DNA of 64,000 nucleotides from Thermoplasmata archaeon (lineage in GTDB: Archaea; Thermoplasmatota; Thermoplasmata; Lutacidiplasmatales; UBA184). The stretch is from the NCBI GenBank assembly GCA_022750335.1, contig JAKIVX010000001.1, positions 129,350-193,349 on the forward strand, written 5' to 3'. The notes below the pieces were generated by a model that saw nothing but the letters and a program-made list of their open reading frames with translations, was not told the DNA's origin and made no database searches. A program made the translations under genes and the position numbers. Below are positions 2,546 to 45,811 of this stretch, in pieces (positions within the stretch are counted from its first letter, which is position 1; each line of letters begins with the position of its first letter).

Positions 2546-5500
2546 CTATTCAATCGGAGGCGCATTTCCAAACGCGGCCAGGAAGAGGGTGAGGTCGGCC
2601 GGAGGTATCAGGTCCGGGTGGACGTACACCCAGACGCGAGCGTTGCCTGCTTGGGCGACCACGTGGAGTCCCGCGAGTTGCTCGATCACGCGCTCGGCTC
2701 CGTGGATCCGGGCCAGATACTCCACTCCTTCGAGGAAGATCGCGGTGACCCGATCCTGCTCCACCGCATTCGCGAGGAAGCTCCCGTAGCCCTCGAGGTC
2801 GCTCGGGCGCAAGGTGAGACCCCGTCCGACGTTGCTCAACCAATAGATCTCGACCGGGCGAGGACCGACATGGGTGCGCAGTCGGTCGGGCGACTCCCGG
2901 ACGACGCAGATCCCCCGGTGACCCGCCGCCGTCGCATCCAGGAAGTGGGCGAAGGCGGGCAGGTACGACGGTGCGACGGTGAGGGTGATCCCTCCGGTCG
3001 GCGTGGGAGGGGGTACCGGGGCAACGATGGCCTCGGCCAAGGGGGGAACCGGTTCCGGGGCGACTTGCTCCTCCGTTGGGCGAGGCTCCGGTGCGGGAGG
3101 TTCGAGCGGGATCTCAGACGCCGTGTCCGCTAGAACTTCCGGAGCGGCGGTAGCCATGGCTGGGTCAGCAAGGGAATCCCCCGATGACCCCGCGGTAGAT
3201 TCGTCCTGTGGGGGAGCATGCTCCGGCAGAACGAGTACGCCGGACGACGGCTCGAGTTCGAGCGAAGGTGGCTGGGATTCCAATGGTGGAGGGGAAGGTC
3301 CCGCAGGGTCCAGCACCGGCGGCGGCGTAACGGTCAGTTCTGGGCGGGCACCTTCCGCAACGGGAGGGCCCGTCTCGATCGACTCCACCGACCCGACCCC
3401 CGATGGAGAAACTTCGTGGGAGGCCGGTTCAACGTTCTCGGGCGCCGGTGACTCGGCCGGGGATGGAGAGGCCCCCGGAATGCCGGGGACCAGAATCGTG
3501 GTCTCGATGCCCAATGGCTCGATCGATTCCGGCAGGGCGAGAGCGGAGGGGGTAGACTCTTCCTCCTTCGCTGCCGGTTCGTCGATCGCGCTCGGGAGTT
3601 CGTGTAACGTGGGGATGGACTCAGGATGGATGGTGTCCGGAATAGCGGGGTCTGGGGGAGCGGCGGGCTCGCGTTCCGCGACCTCCGGCGCGGGCGAGAG
3701 ATCGGGCACTCCTTCCCGTTTGGCGGTTGGTTCGTCGGGGGAAGCATAGCCCCAAGGTGGCAGGAGTTCTGGCCGGGTCGGAGTGTACGAGGGTTCGGAG
3801 CGTAGTTCGTTTTCGGCGTCGATCCCTTGGGCCACGTCGATTGGCGGTTCGCCCGAGGGTAGGGCTGTCGATACGTCTGCGGATGTCCCCGTCTCAGGCG
3901 CCCCCTTCGTAGAGGAGCTTTCGGGCGATTCCGCTCGTGAAGATCTGGGAATACTCTCGCCGTCGGCCGACTCCGCATCCAAAACAAGCGGGTCCGATTC
4001 CGGGAGGGTCGAGCTCGCCGGTGGTAGTGGCTGCTCCTCGGCGACCTCGTCGACGGGGAGGAATTCGGGGGGTGGGGCTGGCACTTCGTCCAGAGCGCCC
4101 TCGCCCGATCCCAGATCCACTGCCGGTTCCTGGGGCGCGCTCTCGCCTAACGGGAGCACCGTCAAATCCCCTCCGTCCGACGGGACGATGGCGGTAGTGC
4201 CCATCGGGGGGTCGGGATCCCGTTCGGGAAGGGAACTCCCCGCGAGCGGTTCTAGTTCTGAGGTTGGAACCGGTGTGGAAACCCCCGACGAGGGAGGGGA
4301 TTCCGGCGGATTCTCCGGCCTCGCGGAGGCCAACTCGGGGGAGGCGGCCGGTGAGTCTTCTGGTTCCCGGCTCGGGGCCGTAAGGGTGGCGGTTTCGACG
4401 GGGAGTGGAGGAGGGGCAACTTCCGCAGTGGGAGCAGAAATCGCTGGCGGGGGAGACGGCGTGGGGGAGGAAGCACCCGGCGGCGGAACCGGGTTCGTCG
4501 AGTCGATTCCCGACAGCTGTCTCGGCGGAGACGATACAGGGCTCATTCGACCAGGATCGGGCTGCCTAGCAGTGGCGGCGAGCGAGACCGAACGGGGTTG
4601 AGTGGGCGCGACCGGAGCGGAAGGTCGGATTTCGGGTGGGTCTCGAGTCGGTTCGGTCCACGTATCCGCGGTGAGTGGGGCGGCCGCGGCTGGATCGGCC
4701 GTGCCGGTGCTTGGGAGTCGGGGGGGCCTCGGCGGGACGACGCCCCCTAGTTTGCCCACCAACGCGGCGGTGAGCGGCCGGCCGAATCCGGGAATCGCGC
4801 TGATCTGGTCGAACGGTGCCTGGCCGAACGAGGCCAATGAATGGAAACCGGCACTCCATGCCCCCTCGACGGCGGTCGGCCCCAAGAGGGGGGCCTCGAG
4901 TATTCCGTCCAGCTCCTGCATGAGGGTACGGATCTCCTCGCTGTGGGCGATGGCGGCTTCGCTGGCGAAGTCGGTTTCGCCGAAGGCATGGATTCCGCTG
5001 GTTGGGCTCGACCGGACACGAGCGAGGCGCGGGCGCGCCATGCGATGCTTGGTCCGGACCGCAGGTGCGACCTCCCCCGGAAGAAGTGCCCACCAATGAA
5101 CTCCCGTGCGCGTGCGCCCGAACAAACACCGGGTGCGAGGGAATTCGGCCGAAGGGTCGACAACCCGCACCTCGGAAACGCCGAGGTAGGCGGCGAGCGG
5201 GCGCGCTAACGCCCGAAGCTCGGCGGCCAGTGGGTCGAGCGTGGCGACGACGACGGGGCCCCGGTCGGTCGGGGGAGTGGTGGCGGTTCGCCGAAGTTCG
5301 TGCTCGACACGGGAGAGAAGGCGGAACGCATCCGGAGAGCCGGGCGGGGGGTTCCGGGTCGGAACGGGTTGTTGGGCGGGCAGCTCGATGTACAATTCCC
5401 CCAGGTTCCAGGGCACCGCGACGACCCGGTCGGGGAGCTGCTCGACAAACTCGACCATCGAAGGGAGGATCCGACGCGAGAGTCCTCGGACCACGACCGA

Positions 5501-7999
5501 GAGCTCGTCCGGAGCGGCCCCCTCGGTCCGTTTGCGTGCCGGCATCCGCTTCAACAGGTGCAGGATCTGGCCCGCCTCCTGCGGGTAGACCCGCTGGATT
5601 TCGGAGAGAACGGGCTCGAACGCACGTTCACGCCCCGTCCAAGGGGCGGAGGGTCCGAACGCCTCGAACCTCCCCACATGGCCGAGTCGTTGCAGGGTGG
5701 CCCGATCCGCCCGAAGTTGGGCCGCGAGCTCATCGCTCCCAAGGATCGCGATCACTGAAGGGATCGGAACGGACGGCCCGACCCCGATCCGACGACGGAA
5801 CGCCGCGACGGCCCGCCCGACCGACGCCCATCGATCCCACGCTTTGACCGCCTCCTCATCGAGAAGGCTCGAATCGAGCGGGTCGATCGCGGACTCGAAC
5901 AGGCTGGTCCGTCCCGGCACGAGCCCGCCCCACACGACCTCGGCGATGTGCGGCGCGACCGGGGCGAGGATGACGGCACTCTCGCGCAGGAGGTGGTGCA
6001 GGGTCCGGAGCGCGCCCCGCCGGGTCGGCGGCGTCCCAGGCAGGTCGAGGCGGGGACGGACCCGCCCCACGTAGGCTTCGAGGTCGTTGGAGAGGAAGTT
6101 GGCCACCCTGCGGAACGCGGTCCCGGCGGATTGGTGGTCGTAGTCGGCCAGCGCCGCGAGTCGGATGCGCTCCCACCGCGCGAGGATGGCCCGGTCCTCG
6201 GTCTCGAGTTCTGCGAGGGAGCCCGTGATCGACTGGGCAAACGCGGCCAACTGGGAGGGGTCGCATCGGTCCAGTGTCGCCTGGGCAAGATACCACCACC
6301 GCTCCAACCGGTACCCCTCCTGCTGACACCGATCCGGGAAGGTCGGTCCGGAACTCTCGCGCTTTTCCCCACCGATGAGCGCCGCGCGCACGGCGTCCGC
6401 CCCCACGGATTTGACCAACTCGGGCACCCCTCCCTCCGGGATTCCCGGTAAGATGGTGACGCCCAGGTCATTCGGCACCCCCGCCACCCCGGACATGACG
6501 GCGAGATGATGGACGAGGGCCGGCGAGCGCCGGCGTTCGTTGAGATACAGCCACACCGAATCTCCCGCCGGGAACGGGTCGAACCGGGCCCACGCCGCCA
6601 GTGTTCCCGAGATCGAGGGGAGGAGGCGACGACTGACCGGATTTCGACGACTTCCACAGGAACATCGGTCGGCCGCTCCCAACGGCTCCAGGCGTTCACA
6701 GCTCGGGCATTCGAGGAGCGTGACCGTGAAGGGACCCGGGGGCGCGGAGGTGGGTTCGCTCACGGGCCAGGCCGCGACCTCGACCTGGCCCACCGGCGGG
6801 TCCTTCGGGAGCAGGCGTCGGTAGAGATCCCTGCGTTCCGGCGGGAGACGCGACGGTTCGAGGCACCAGGCTCGACCCGGTGCCCAGACCATCGGGGTGC
6901 CGCAGATCGCACAATGCGGAACCCCGCGTCGGACCCGAAGGCGAGCGAAGAGCGCCCCGCTCTCCCCGAGATCCCGCGCGACGAACTCGCTTGCGGTCGG
7001 AATGTCGAGCCCGGAATACTTGTGGGCGATGTTGAAGTCGAGCTGCCCTCGGGCGGTTACGAGCGGCCATCCCAGGATACCGAGTCGGTCGGCGATCAGG
7101 GCGTCGGTTCCTCCGTGTCCCGGGACAAGCGGCACGATCCCCGTTCCGCTCTCCCCCACGTCGGCCACGGCGAGGATGGTTCCCGATGGCGGGGTCAGGT
7201 CGCCGCCCATCGGGAATTCGTGCCGGAGAGGGTACTGGTACGTCTGGCCCTGCCAGCGGGAGCCCGGGCTCTCCTCGAGCACCTCGACCTCTCCTCCCGG
7301 CAACCATTCGAGCAGACGCGACAGGGACGGTCGCGAGGTCAGGATCTTCTCGTCCAATCCCCGTCGACGATACCGTGCGACCACGTACGGCAGGTTCGGG
7401 CTGACCAGGAGGGCACTCGCCCCGAGCAAACGCCAGGGCGCGTCCACCCAGACGATCGCATTCACGACACCGTCCGCGTACGGCAGCGGGAAGCGGACGA
7501 GGTACGTGTCCCCGTCCTCCTCTTGATAGATGATCCGCTCCGGGCTCCGCGGTTGGGCGCAGGTCGGACAGATCCGGAGCGAGGTGTCCCGAGTGGCGAC
7601 CAGTCCCCGAGACGCCATCCGGCCCAGGATCGCCTCGACTCCGCCCCGGCGGTCCGCGGAGTCGACCGGAAGTCCCCCCGAGCCCCCGGTCCAGACCGAG
7701 AGGTCCCGTAGGAGTACGACCGCCGGATCGTCATTCGCACCCGCCACGGAACGAAGGGTTCCGATCGCCCGGCGGCCCGCGAGGGCGAGGTATCGGGCAT
7801 CGGTGTCGGCGGCCACCGCCCGGAACGCCACGAGGCCCGGGTCGTCCCCCGCTAGGAGCGACCCTTCGAATTGACGAACGATCGGGGCGGTCGAACGTCC
7901 TACGACCCCGTCCGGCCGTGGAAATCCGCGCGCTGCCCAGAGGTCCCGGGCCGAGCGCTCGACCTCTCCGTACCGATACTTCTCCGCGAGGACCCCCAT
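2546..7999 (-). CDS. Degenerate isoleucyl-tRNA synthetase-like protein (no HIGH/KMSKS) + HhH segment + Pro/Glu/Ser-rich linker + C-terminal DUF835-like domain
   Basis: 1817-aa ORF from ATG at 7999. IleRS-like landmarks: EG...DTDARYLALAGRRA, editing-domain-like GTGIVPLVPGHGGTDALIADRLG, CxxC pairs, VGADAVRAAL, anticodon-binding-like ILAPVAPHIAEVVW. HhH GPTAVEGAWSAGF...ISAIPGFGRPLTAAL; C-terminus matches remembered DUF835 pattern. Confidence 0.75.
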   Translation of the reverse strand: MGVLAEKYRYGEVERSARDLWAARGFPRPDGVVGRSTAPIVRQFEGSLLAGDDPGLVAFRAVAADTDARYLALAGRRAIGTLRSVAGANDDPAVVLLRDLSVWTGGSGGLPVDSADRRGGVEAILGRMASRGLVATRDTSLRICPTCAQPRSPERIIYQEEDGDTYLVRFPLPYADGVVNAIVWVDAPWRLLGASALLVSPNLPYVVARYRRRGLDEKILTSRPSLSRLLEWLPGGEVEVLEESPGSRWQGQTYQYPLRHEFPMGGDLTPPSGTILAVADVGESGTGIVPLVPGHGGTDALIADRLGILGWPLVTARGQLDFNIAHKYSGLDIPTASEFVARDLGESGALFARLRVRRGVPHCAICGTPMVWAPGRAWCLEPSRLPPERRDLYRRLLPKDPPVGQVEVAAWPVSEPTSAPPGPFTVTLLECPSCERLEPLGAADRCSCGSRRNPVSRRLLPSISGTLAAWARFDPFPAGDSVWLYLNERRRSPALVHHLAVMSGVAGVPNDLGVTILPGIPEGGVPELVKSVGADAVRAALIGGEKRESSGPTFPDRCQQEGYRLERWWYLAQATLDRCDPSQLAAFAQSITGSLAELETEDRAILARWERIRLAALADYDHQSAGTAFRRVANFLSNDLEAYVGRVRPRLDLPGTPPTRRGALRTLHHLLRESAVILAPVAPHIAEVVWGGLVPGRTSLFESAIDPLDSSLLDEEAVKAWDRWASVGRAVAAFRRRIGVGPSVPIPSVIAILGSDELAAQLRADRATLQRLGHVGRFEAFGPSAPWTGRERAFEPVLSEIQRVYPQEAGQILHLLKRMPARKRTEGAAPDELSVVVRGLSRRILPSMVEFVEQLPDRVVAVPWNLGELYIELPAQQPVPTRNPPPGSPDAFRLLSRVEHELRRTATTPPTDRGPVVVATLDPLAAELRALARPLAAYLGVSEVRVVDPSAEFPRTRCLFGRTRTGVHWWALLPGEVAPAVRTKHRMARPRLARVRSSPTSGIHAFGETDFASEAAIAHSEEIRTLMQELDGILEAPLLGPTAVEGAWSAGFHSLASFGQAPFDQISAIPGFGRPLTAALVGKLGGVVPPRPPRLPSTGTADPAAAAPLTADTWTEPTRDPPEIRPSAPVAPTQPRSVSLAATARQPDPGRMSPVSSPPRQLSGIDSTNPVPPPGASSPTPSPPPAISAPTAEVAPPPLPVETATLTAPSREPEDSPAASPELASARPENPPESPPSSGVSTPVPTSELEPLAGSSLPERDPDPPMGTTAIVPSDGGDLTVLPLGESAPQEPAVDLGSGEGALDEVPAPPPEFLPVDEVAEEQPLPPASSTLPESDPLVLDAESADGESIPRSSRAESPESSSTKGAPETGTSADVSTALPSGEPPIDVAQGIDAENELRSEPSYTPTRPELLPPWGYASPDEPTAKREGVPDLSPAPEVAEREPAAPPDPAIPDTIHPESIPTLHELPSAIDEPAAKEEESTPSALALPESIEPLGIETTILVPGIPGASPSPAESPAPENVEPASHEVSPSGVGSVESIETGPPVAEGARPELTVTPPPVLDPAGPSPPPLESQPPSLELEPSSGVLVLPEHAPPQDESTAGSSGDSLADPAMATAAPEVLADTASEIPLEPPAPEPRPTEEQVAPEPVPPLAEAIVAPVPPPTPTGGITLTVAPSYLPAFAHFLDATAAGHRGICVVRESPDRLRTHVGPRPVEIYWLSNVGRGLTLRPSDLEGYGSFLANAVEQDRVTAIFLEGVEYLARIHGAERVIEQLAGLHVVAQAGNARVWVYVHPDLIPPADLTLFLAAFGNAPPIE

Positions 8000-8143
8000 G
8001 GTTCCGACCCTCGCTATCGAGGTACTACGAGGGTCGGGGTGTCGAATAAACCCTCTCTCCCGAACGCCGGGAGACCCACCGAAACTGGCACAAGCAACTC
8101 TTATCCACCCGGCGCGGTCCCCGCTCTCCCGAGGAGAATCTCC

Positions 8144-8530
8144 ATGGCCTGGACGCAGCAAGAGGTCCGCGAGTTGAAGGAGGGCCGGTACATGCTCATC
8201 GACGAGGAGCCGTGCCGAATCATTAGCATTCAAACGTCCAAACCCGGGAAGCATGGCGAAGCCAAGGCACGGATCGACGCGGTCGGGATCTTCGACCGCC
8301 GAAAGCGCAGCGTCGTCTTCCCGGTGACCCACAAGGTCCAGGTCCCGATGATCGGGAAACGCCAGGCCCAGGTCCTATCGATGACCGATACCGAGGTGCA
8401 ACTGATGGACCTCGAGTCCTATGAGACGTTCAGCCTCGCGGTCGACGCGGAGACGAAAGCCCAGATCGCCCCGGGTGGCGAGGTCCAGTACCTTGACGCC
8501 ATGGGGAAACGCCAGATCACCCGGACGTAA
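8144..8530 (+). CDS. eif5a: Translation initiation factor aIF5A
   Basis: Hypusine-site motif TSKPGKHGEAKARID; ATG at 8144; length 128 aa. Confidence 0.95.
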   Translation: MAWTQQEVRELKEGRYMLIDEEPCRIISIQTSKPGKHGEAKARIDAVGIFDRRKRSVVFPVTHKVQVPMIGKRQAQVLSMTDTEVQLMDLESYETFSLAVDAETKAQIAPGGEVQYLDAMGKRQITRT

Positions 8531-13816: not shown

Positions 13817-13921
13817 GCTCCCGTAGTCTAGTGGTCAAGGATAGAGGCCTCTCGAGCCTTTGACGCGGGTTCAAATCCGGCCGACTCACCGGGTCGACCG
13901 GGGAAACTCCCGCCGGGAGCA
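13817..13921 (+). tRNA. tRNA-Glu(CTC) with a 32-nt intron in the T-loop (best boundary 13876..13907)
   Basis: Acceptor GCTCCCG/CGGGAGC, D-arm GTC/GAT, anticodon arm GAGGC-CTCTCGA-GCCTT, T-stem GCGGG/CCCGC pair only if 32 nt are removed; mature length 73 nt with discriminator A. Confidence 0.87.
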
Positions 13922-24703: not shown

Positions 24704-25254
24704 TCGACCCATCCCCCGACACCGCTCCGCCCCCGGACGCTATCCTTCGGATGCTGCTCGAAGCGTCCGCGGTCCGATTCGGGGAATTCACCCTCACCTC
24801 GGGCGAGAAGAGCGACGTCTACGTGGACGTCAAGCGCGCGTGGACGGACCCCCACCGTCTCGACCTGCTCGCGCGGGCCTTCGCCGCCCGCGTCGGGTCG
24901 GCGGACCGCCTCGCGGGCATGGAGCTGGGCGCGGTCCCCCTCGTGGTGGCGACCGCCCTGCGCACCGGACATCCGTTCACGATCCTGCGCAAGTCCGTGA
25001 AAGAACACGGGACCCGCCAGGCCTACGAGGGCGACCTCGCCTCCGGCGACCGCGTCCTGCTCATCGAGGACGTTTCGACCACGGGCGGGAGCTCGGAGCG
25101 CTCCGTGCAGATCCTCCGCGCGGCCGGCGGCGTGGTCAACCGCGCCCTCGTCGTCATCGACCGAGAGGCCGGTGCGCGCGAGCGACTGGCCGCGATCGGC
25201 GTACGCCTCGAACCGCTCGCGACGTTGAGCGACCTGCGCAGGGCGCGCACGTGA
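24697..25254 (+). CDS. pyrE: Orotate phosphoribosyltransferase
   Basis: FTLTSGEKSDVYVDVK and PRPP motif VLLIEDVSTTGGS. Confidence 0.93.
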   Translation: MVIDPSPDTAPPPDAILRMLLEASAVRFGEFTLTSGEKSDVYVDVKRAWTDPHRLDLLARAFAARVGSADRLAGMELGAVPLVVATALRTGHPFTILRKSVKEHGTRQAYEGDLASGDRVLLIEDVSTTGGSSERSVQILRAAGGVVNRALVVIDREAGARERLAAIGVRLEPLATLSDLRRART

Positions 25255-26315
25255 CGGGCCGCCTCCGCGACGACGCGACCGTCCGGTTCGAAGATCCGGC
25301 CGAAGCCTCCAACATCTACGGAAAGGGGTTCTTCGGCACCCCCGAGTCGGGTGGCGGTCTGACCTTGGACCGGTACGAGGCGGTGTACCTGGCCGAAATG
25401 TCCCGGGCCGAGATCGTCGGCCTGCGTGGGCGCCCCGTACCCTGGCCGGAGGTGTTCCGCCGGGCCGTGCGGTCCGATGGCGGCTTTTCCGTGCGGTACC
25501 TGGTCTATCGCGACTTGCGCCAACGCGGGTACGTCGTGCGGGCGAGCGGCCCACCCGTGGCGTTCGCGGTCCTCCCCCGCGGCGGAATTTTGCACAAGAC
25601 CCCGTCCCGGTTCTGGATCGAAGCGATCAGCGAACGCGAACCGTTCGACCTGACCCGCCTGTTCGAACTCGCGGATCGGGGTCAGTCGGCGAAGAAGGTG
25701 GTGCTGCTCGCGGTCGTCGACGAGGAGTCGGACCTGACGTACTACCGGGTCCGCCGACCCTCGCCGACCGGTGCGGTCCCGTCGCCACCGCTCGCGGCGT
25801 CCGTGGAGGGGTGGCTTTCGGTCGACCGGGTGACGGTCCACGACTCGGTGGCTGCCGAGGCACTGGGGAAGGCCCTCGCCTACGGGAGCCGGATCGGCGA
25901 CCGGCTCGAGTTGAGCCTCCTCGAGTCGGCCTACCTCGCCTCGACGGGCCAGTTGACGCTCCGGGACGCAACGTCCGGCCGGGCGGTCCCCCTAGATCGG
26001 CTGCTCGCCCGCGCGCGACGTCTCGACCCGGGGTTCTCCGAACGTCTCGCGGCGTATCGGGACCTGCGCGGACGTCAGTTGATCGTCAAGACCGGTTTCA
26101 AGTACGGGGCCCATTTCCGCGCCTACCCTCGAAACCCCGAGCACGCCCACGCCCGGTACCTCGTCCACGCGGTCCCGGATTCCCACCGGGCGCGCTGGCC
26201 GACGGTCGCCGGCGGGGTACGCGTGGCGCAGGGGGTCCGCAAGGAGTTCCTGATGGCCGGCGTGGGGCCGGAGGACCGGGTCCGGTTCCTGTCCCTCGAA
26301 CGGATCCGGCCCTAG
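25251..26315 (+). CDS. endA: tRNA-splicing endonuclease (double-length EndA)
   Basis: Two tandem EndA-like halves; C-terminal half KTGFKYGAHFRAYPRNPEHAHARYLVHAVP...VRVAQGVRKEFLMA carries plausible Tyr/His/Lys catalytic residues. Confidence 0.87.
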   Translation: MTGRLRDDATVRFEDPAEASNIYGKGFFGTPESGGGLTLDRYEAVYLAEMSRAEIVGLRGRPVPWPEVFRRAVRSDGGFSVRYLVYRDLRQRGYVVRASGPPVAFAVLPRGGILHKTPSRFWIEAISEREPFDLTRLFELADRGQSAKKVVLLAVVDEESDLTYYRVRRPSPTGAVPSPPLAASVEGWLSVDRVTVHDSVAAEALGKALAYGSRIGDRLELSLLESAYLASTGQLTLRDATSGRAVPLDRLLARARRLDPGFSERLAAYRDLRGRQLIVKTGFKYGAHFRAYPRNPEHAHARYLVHAVPDSHRARWPTVAGGVRVAQGVRKEFLMAGVGPEDRVRFLSLERIRP

Positions 26316-44659: not shown

Positions 44660-45811
44660 ATGTCCGAGCCCTACGAACTGCCGCCCGACCCCCTGGCCGG
44701 CGAGTTGGACGCCTTCATCGAATCGCATGAACTGAGCGCCCGCGGCCGACTGCTGGATCGGGAGCCGGCGTTTCCGCGGCGCGAATTCGAGTCGATGGGT
44801 GCGGCGGGCTGGCTGGGATTGACGACTCCCGTCTCGTTCGGGGGACGCGGACTCTCGATCGCGCGGGCCGGCGTGCTGTTGCACCGGCTCGCCTTCCGCT
44901 CGGGAACCACCTTCGCCAAACTCTCCCTCCAGCCGGAATTCGCCTCCGTCCTTCACGAGGTCGGCTCCGAGGCGCTCCTCGACACATGGTATCGTCCGCT
45001 CGTGGCCGGTCGCCGTCTCGTGGGCAATCAGATCACGGAGCCGGGAGCCGGCTCGGACGCCCAGGCCCTCCAACTCGCGGCCCGGCGCGACCCGACCGGT
45101 TACTCGCTGTCCGGCGAAAAGACCGAGGTCGCCTTCGCGACGGAGGCGGATGCGGCGCTCGTCTACGGGCGGGTCGAGGGAGGGGAGACGGACGGAGTGA
45201 CCGCCTTCCTGGTCCCCCAGGAGGGCTCCGGAATCCTGCGCCAGGTCGTGGGAACCGACCTCGGAGAACGGTGGCAACGTCGCGGGTCGGTGACCTACCG
45301 CCATGTTCATGTGCCACTGGAATCGCGACTGGGCGAGGAGGGCGAGGGTTTCTCCTACGTGCGCGCCGAGCTCACCCGGGAACGGGCCCTTCTGGCGGCC
45401 GTCTACCTCGGGGTCGCCCGCGCCTCGTGGGTGGACACGGTGAAGCATGTGGGCCGGCGGATGGCCTTCGGACGACCGCTCTCGGCCAACCAGGCCGTGG
45501 CCTTTCCGCTGGTGGACGACGAGGGGGACCTCGCCGCGGGTTGGTTGTACGTCCGTCAAGTTCTCGAGCGGCTCGACCGCGCGGAGGAGGTCGACGCCGA
45601 GGCCGCTCTCGCGAAATCGATCGCGACGCGGGTCTCTCTCCAGGCGCTCGATCACGCGATCCAGTTTCACGGGGGGCGGGGCTATTCGAATGAGCTGCCC
45701 TTCGAACAGCGATGGCGGGACGTCCGCAGTGGGTCGATCGCCCACGGGTCTTCCGAGATCATGCACCTGGTGGCGGCCCGCCGACTCTGGTCTCGGCGCC
45801 CGGCGTCCTAG
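44660..45811 (+). CDS. Acyl-CoA dehydrogenase family protein
   Basis: QITEPGAGSDAQAL, GERWQRRGSVTYRHVHVPLESRLGEEGEGF, QFHGGRGYSNELPFEQRWRDVRSGSIAHGSSEI. Confidence 0.93.
   Translation: MSEPYELPPDPLAGELDAFIESHELSARGRLLDREPAFPRREFESMGAAGWLGLTTPVSFGGRGLSIARAGVLLHRLAFRSGTTFAKLSLQPEFASVLHEVGSEALLDTWYRPLVAGRRLVGNQITEPGAGSDAQALQLAARRDPTGYSLSGEKTEVAFATEADAALVYGRVEGGETDGVTAFLVPQEGSGILRQVVGTDLGERWQRRGSVTYRHVHVPLESRLGEEGEGFSYVRAELTRERALLAAVYLGVARASWVDTVKHVGRRMAFGRPLSANQAVAFPLVDDEGDLAAGWLYVRQVLERLDRAEEVDAEAALAKSIATRVSLQALDHAIQFHGGRGYSNELPFEQRWRDVRSGSIAHGSSEIMHLVAARRLWSRRPAS

Follow-up and report, generated by a model that had tools for sequence, protein, structure and literature searches.

Anatomy of the tRNA-Glu(CTC) locus

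The window, namely the whole 64,000-nt stretch of DNA analysed here, comes from an uncultured soil archaeon of the Lutacidiplasmatales-type Thermoplasmatota. Direct reading of the letters reveals at 13817-13921 a gene for tRNA-Glu(CTC) with 32 nt inserted in its T-loop at 59/60 (Table 1), and this is the only glutamate tRNA gene for GAG codons that was found in the genome, which is 72% complete. The layout of the locus is GCTCCCG TA GTCTAGTGGTCAAGGAT A GAGGC CTCTCGA GCCTT TGAC GCGGG TTCAAA (intron TCCGGCCGACTCACCGGGTCGACCGGGGAAAC) T CCCGC CGGGAGC A. As the first-pass annotation had remarked, the 3' part cannot pair with the acceptor when read contiguously, and solely once the 32 nt are removed do the acceptor stem and the T-stem become fully paired, with 7/7 and 5/5 pairs respectively. 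The precursor of 105 nt gives no tRNA in ARAGORN, the spliced 73 nt are called as tRNA-Glu(ctc), and the Rfam tRNA model matches the unspliced locus just partially (13822-13883, 39.1 bits), without the acceptor stem. When the whole window is scanned by ARAGORN, no tRNA is found at the locus; the sole call, tRNA-Arg(tcg) at 44803-44894, has no Rfam support, apparently belongs to coding sequence and is probably a false positive.

Table 1. Coordinates of the interrupted tRNA gene, its predicted splicing motif and the endonuclease gene in the window
Feature	Position	Strand	Description
tRNA-Glu(CTC) exon 1, positions 1-59	13817..13875	+	59 nt; direct sequence, ARAGORN on the spliced form
T-loop intron, 59/60	13876..13907	+	32 nt; the orthologues L150 and L237 lack it and have a 73-nt tRNA identical to the predicted spliced form
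Exon 2 (T60, 3' T-stem, 3' acceptor strand, discriminator A)	13908..13921	+	14 nt; spliced-form pairing, ARAGORN
Outer helix, 5' strand (T-stem GCGGG)	13865..13869	+	partner 13909-13913
BHB central helix, exon strand TTCA	13870..13873	+	opposite 13902-13905 (GGAA); 3 pairs and an A-G mismatch
5' bulge AA^T with 5' splice site	13874..13876	+	predicted cut 13875/13876
Intron helix h', 5' strand CCGGCCGAC	13877..13885	+	partner 13893-13901; covariation over 75 introns
Intron helix h', 3' strand GTCGACCGG	13893..13901	+	covariation over 75 introns
BHB central helix, intron strand GGAA	13902..13905	+	pairing table and 75 orthologous introns
3' bulge AC^T with 3' splice site	13906..13908	+	predicted cut 13907/13908
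tRNA-splicing endonuclease EndA	25251..26315	+	354 aa; single chain with two PF01974 units, alpha'2 type

The precursor can be folded into an archaeal bulge-helix-bulge (BHB) motif. In fact two 3-nt bulges lie on opposite strands, each having one predicted cut site after its second nucleotide (AA^T and AC^T), and the coordinates, lengths and cut positions given in the first-pass annotation proved correct to the single base. Helices are present on both sides of the bulges, namely the T-stem and the intron helix h', of which 8/9 positions are paired in the window, so that the insert indeed folds as had been described. The central helix has three pairs and an A-G mismatch in place of the four base pairs of the strict form, and the predicted motif of the window intron is a near-canonical BHB, not a strict one. 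As for a group I or group II intron, Rfam (E up to 1) gives the tRNA alone in this region, and such an intron is unlikely also because 32 nt is far below the size of either group.

Conservation, covariation and empty sites

A DNA search recovered the locus from 33 of the 36 congeners sampled; the exons of these copies are almost the same throughout and the insert differs, and over all the fetched loci there are 75 distinct versions of the Glu(CTC) gene with the intron and 5 distinct versions without it. Two intronless genes, L150 and L237, the latter from the sister genus g26, are letter for letter the same as the predicted spliced 73-mer, and such empty-site orthologues identical to the spliced product are found in g26 and in TL1-5.bin18; it follows from these together with the ARAGORN call that intron removal restores a standard tRNA, the complete 73-nt tRNA-Glu of the first reading. 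Because the exons are held nearly constant around a variable intron in so many congeners and the intronless orthologues equal the spliced form, the recurrence of the locus is, as judged from these alignments, far beyond chance. The copy of Candidatus Lutacidiplasma silvani AcS3-62 (L185), which NCBI places in Thermoplasmatota, Ca. Lutacidiplasmatales, carries the intron too.

Across the 75 introns, 86% of the positions in the nine-position intron stem are paired, compared with 65% when the 3' strands are swapped between species (sd 1.4%, with 70% as the best of 1000 swaps). The three pairs formed by TTC of the T-loop and GAA of the intron, with wobbles allowed, are kept in 75/75 introns. At the fourth central position, the base facing A57 is G in 56 introns, T in 15, A in 3 and C in 1, and thus the A-G mismatch that had been noted in the window is real and the commonest state in the relatives.

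With these data two other explanations of the locus can be weighed. By one of them the locus is a tRNA pseudogene in decay, into which a hairpin happened to be inserted, and the tRNA-Glu(CTC) in actual use is encoded elsewhere; in a genome 72% complete another copy could be missing from the assembly, and an extra copy is for this reason formally possible, which counts against our own reading. However, near-invariant exons and a stem covarying over 75 distinct sequences are hardly the marks of decay, and a second tRNA-Glu(CTC) was looked for and found neither in our genome nor in the congener G029, which is 100% complete and, like nearly all congeners, has a single gene with the intron present; a pseudogene is accordingly very improbable. 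The other explanation is an extended T-arm, where the 32 nt are kept in the mature RNA. The insert is a stable hairpin stacking on the T-stem, as this would need, but its retention would destroy the TTCRAAT T-loop that is required for the elbow; moreover the intron loop drifts in sequence and in length (26-32 nt over the 75 orthologous introns) while the geometry of the cut sites is kept, and a tRNA without the insert is in use in sister genera. We consider this retention scarcely credible. The conserved insert is a real intron and, from the sequence evidence, almost certainly functional.

Within the family, the Glu(CTC) intron is present in the genera g1, g25 and g29, and none was seen in g24, g26, g27 and g28 nor in about 30 other class members that were read. 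Its history may be a gain in one clade or a repeated loss.

T-loop introns across the lineage

The intron is not confined to this gene. Our own genome and G029 were covered by Rfam tRNA searches, reading by eye and a tabulated check, and the resulting counts per genome, as also those from inventories of eight relatives, are lower bounds. T-loop 59/60 introns were found in our genome also in the tRNA genes of Asn, Arg(TCT), Ala(GGC) and Gln(CTG), and by eye in Leu(TAG), while G029 has at least 11 genes with a T-loop intron, namely Asn, Arg(TCT), Glu(CTC), Ser(GCT), Gln(CTG), Ala(GGC), Ser(GGA), Gly(TCC), Ser(CGA), Arg(TCG) and Asp. The site is 59/60 in each of the 18 T-loop introns tabulated, and the bulges have the form AA^N and NN^T, 3 nt/3 nt, a geometry to which the bulges AAT and ACT of the window, proposed at the first pass with a cut after the second nucleotide of each, conform. 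A central helix of four pairs occurs in the Gln, Gly, Arg-TCG and Asp T-loop introns of G029/G000.

Sister genera without the Glu(CTC) intron have T-loop introns in other tRNAs nonetheless. After removal of the 59/60 insert, 20/20 candidates from these genera were called by ARAGORN as Asp, His, Gln, Ser, Gly, Asn or Lys tRNAs, a rate that is biased since the candidates were hand-picked for their hairpin look; the simple T-loop pattern that served only to pick them has many coding matches and is too loose for counts. With a strict intron pattern, 4.6 matches per genome were obtained in the family (39 genomes) versus 0.5 in 123 other genomes of the class, and the reversed pattern gave 0.2 and 0.3 respectively as a control. 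Elsewhere in the GTDB order, a T-loop intron interrupts Arg(CCG) in family f2, and one of 13 nt interrupts Glu(CTC) in family f3, alongside an anticodon-loop intron. Altogether T-loop 59/60 introns are found in at least 15 isoacceptors of the order.

In every tRNA with a T-loop intron that was read here, T-loop positions 54-59 are TTCRAA. The same 3' end of the intron would then fit any tRNA with such a T-loop, and this is likely why the site 59/60 dominates and has been colonised in so many isoacceptors. A recent transposition between tRNAs was looked for through the kinship of the introns, and no sign of copying appeared, as the mean alignment score was 1.5 in G029 and -1.4 in G000 versus 0.16 (sd 2.7) for shuffled sequences. 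Since orthologous introns drift nearly as far as the introns of different tRNAs, this comparison speaks neither for nor against transposition.

The splicing endonuclease and the proposed splicing pathway

The gene for EndA is located in the same window, 11 kb from the tRNA gene; its GTG start is inferred, the frame opening at 24840. The chain consists of two PF01974 and two PF02778 stretches, with the C-terminal unit catalytic. Its AlphaFold model (pLDDT 95.4) was matched by Foldseek to A. fulgidus EndA with TMt 0.86-0.91 (2gjw and 1rlv, with 0.91 for the dimeric 2gjw), and also to the M. kandleri fusion construct 5x89. The residues that align with the catalytic triad (Tyr, His and Lys), namely Y292, H300 and K331, as well as R324, are invariant in 37 sequences. 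Our genome has one EndA gene only, the single-gene two-unit form is found throughout the genus and in most of the class, and no gene for a partner subunit was found in the genomes searched. With two PF01974 units in one chain the enzyme is of the alpha'2 type, and by the likeness of its modelled monomer fold to A. fulgidus EndA it is predicted to be a homodimer. A gene for the RtcB ligase is present as well.

The enzyme seems to be an ordinary one with respect to specificity loops. Among 42 aligned sequences of the Thermoplasmata class, no lysine-bearing CSL/ASL insertion lies ahead of the catalytic unit, and at the CSL site our EndA reads YGSRIGDRLELSL, gap-free against YGSEKGDLVTLSL of wild-type A. 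fulgidus, where the CSL-bearing chimera 3p1y has extra residues; a lineage-specific loop at the CSL/ASL site was therefore rejected as the cause of the T-loop introns. The N-terminal unit has a basic loop (PRGG...KTPS..W; residues about 100-120 of the EndA encoded here) which is conserved in the EndA of most class members, and not in that of A. fulgidus or in L275. It was likewise rejected as the cause, being present also in class members whose tRNA-Glu(CTC) showed no T-loop intron. Another feature of the window is an open frame of 1928 aa at 2546-8332 on the minus strand, with a PF08264 tRNA-ligase anticodon-binding domain and a C-terminal DUF835 separated by a long Pro/Glu/Ser-rich stretch.

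The locus is thus very probably a working gene for tRNA-Glu(CTC), interrupted at T-loop 59/60 by an archaeal BHB intron of 32 nt, for which excision by the alpha'2 EndA and joining of the exons by RtcB are predicted. The first-pass annotation had read it as a T-loop BHB intron, and this reading is backed by the empty-site orthologues, the covariation over 75 introns, the endonuclease in the window and the ligase. In the precursor, the T-stem would serve as the outer helix, TTC(A)/GGAA as the central helix and the intron hairpin as the inner helix of one stack, in which EndA would cleave each 3-nt bulge between its second and third base; RtcB would then ligate the exons into the standard 73-nt tRNA. 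A homodimeric Thermoplasmatota EndA, that of Ferroplasma, is reported to cut minimal BHB substrates; recognition of BHB and BHL-like motifs by archaeal EndA is described as independent of the mature domain of the tRNA, and homodimers as able to cut the BHL-like ones (PMC8707768).

What speaks against this pathway is the fourth position of the central helix, where the window intron and those of most relatives have A-G and so depart from the strict 4-bp BHB. The intron might be a BHB intron whose splicing in the T-loop is enabled by a factor besides the alpha'2 EndA, such as an extra subunit or another nuclease, considering that alpha'2 enzymes are described as restricted to the canonical BHB (PMC4033280, PMC6379350, PMC12397907), and that this EndA has neither the CSL nor the ASL insertion and faces mostly A-G at that pair. 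However, one EndA gene only is present in the genomes searched, none of the T-loop introns examined departs from the canonical bulge sizes, and homodimers accept BHL-like motifs too (PMC8707768), so such a factor seems unlikely, and cleavage by the alpha'2 EndA itself is preferred. The A-G pair makes the intron a test case between the view of PMC8707768 and that of PMC6379350 and PMC12397907, where alpha'2 enzymes are classed as narrow in specificity.

Comparison with known systems

Among known systems, the Thermoproteales (Sugahara 2008 and Fujishima 2010, as cited in PMC4090602 and PMC8450103) likewise have BHB introns at non-canonical positions including 59/60, in many tRNAs and sometimes several per gene. 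They differ in having an (alpha beta)2 EndA with the CSL and many positions, whereas here one T-loop position dominates with an alpha'2 enzyme lacking the CSL. In Korarchaeum, described in 2014 as the only alpha2 archaeon with non-canonical introns, a homodimer-type EndA is also combined with such introns, but its enzyme is reported to bear a special loop (PMC4033280); this CSL-like specific loop is absent from the Lutacidiplasmatales EndA. The Asgard Atabeyarchaeia and Freyarchaeia (PMC11291895) are intron-rich soil archaea with frequent non-canonical positions as well, yet they are an unrelated lineage with 92-95% of tRNA genes affected, often by several introns each. The canonical 37/38 introns of Euryarchaeota (Archaeoglobus, Thermoplasma, Ferroplasma) share the alpha'2 EndA type and the bulge sizes, and differ from ours in the T-loop site, the T-loop-derived central helix and the usual A-G at the fourth pair.

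Some archaea are already on record as having introns at 59/60 (PMC4090602), and tRNAscan-SE 2.0 looks for such introns (PMC8450103). The main text of the Lutacidiplasmatales description (PMC9287336) does not contain the word "intron", and nothing on point about tRNA introns in Thermoplasmatota was met in the literature searched, a search to which most subscription papers and GtRNAdb were external. It is likely that automated pipelines have annotated these introns before, and no priority is claimed.

The element itself is of a known kind, but the reviews would not have led one to expect it in this lineage or together with this type of enzyme. The standing view is that non-canonical tRNA introns go with (alpha beta)2 or epsilon2 endonucleases bearing a special loop (PMC4090602, PMC4033280, PMC6379350, PMC12397907), and Euryarchaeota with alpha4 or alpha2 enzymes are described as having tRNA genes with one intron only, at the canonical position (PMC4090602); the first-pass remark that euryarchaeal-type lineages seldom have tRNA introns outside the anticodon loop agrees with PMC4090602 and PMC4033280. 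The many T-loop introns beside an ordinary alpha'2 enzyme are not predicted by the published rule of co-evolution. There is perhaps an even chance that the conserved TTCRAAT makes the T-loop a portable site, colonised by BHB introns across these isoacceptors of a Thermoplasmatota order and spliced from A-G-bearing motifs by an alpha'2 EndA without a specificity loop. If so, the architecture of EndA and its CSL/ASL loops would not be what permits non-canonical introns. Because this lineage combines many T-loop introns with an alpha'2 enzyme, and has sister genera that are intronless at the same gene, a single enzyme and a single pre-tRNA would suffice to test the rule directly. More practically, such tRNAs may look absent in the genomes of this group, because ARAGORN misses them and Rfam shows truncated low-scoring matches only.

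Other inserts in tRNA genes

Several other inserts were observed. The tRNA-Leu(TAG) gene of our genome (L385, G000:C18, near 62980) has by eye apparently both a D-loop and a T-loop insert and is called by neither tool; it adjoins tRNA-Gln(CTG), itself with a T-loop intron (L133). The initiator tRNA-Met has a D-loop insert of about 30 nt in our genome (L019) and in G029 (L113), a second non-canonical position in the lineage, and tRNA-Arg(GCG) of G029 (L123, G029:C12) has a D-arm insert. In family f2 of the same order (L134, L135 and L136, from G037 and G039), tRNA-Glu(CTC)/tRNA-Glu(TTC) genes have anticodon-loop inserts of about 200-430 nt with internal repeats, which exceed the range of 11-129 nt quoted for archaeal tRNA introns (PMC4090602).
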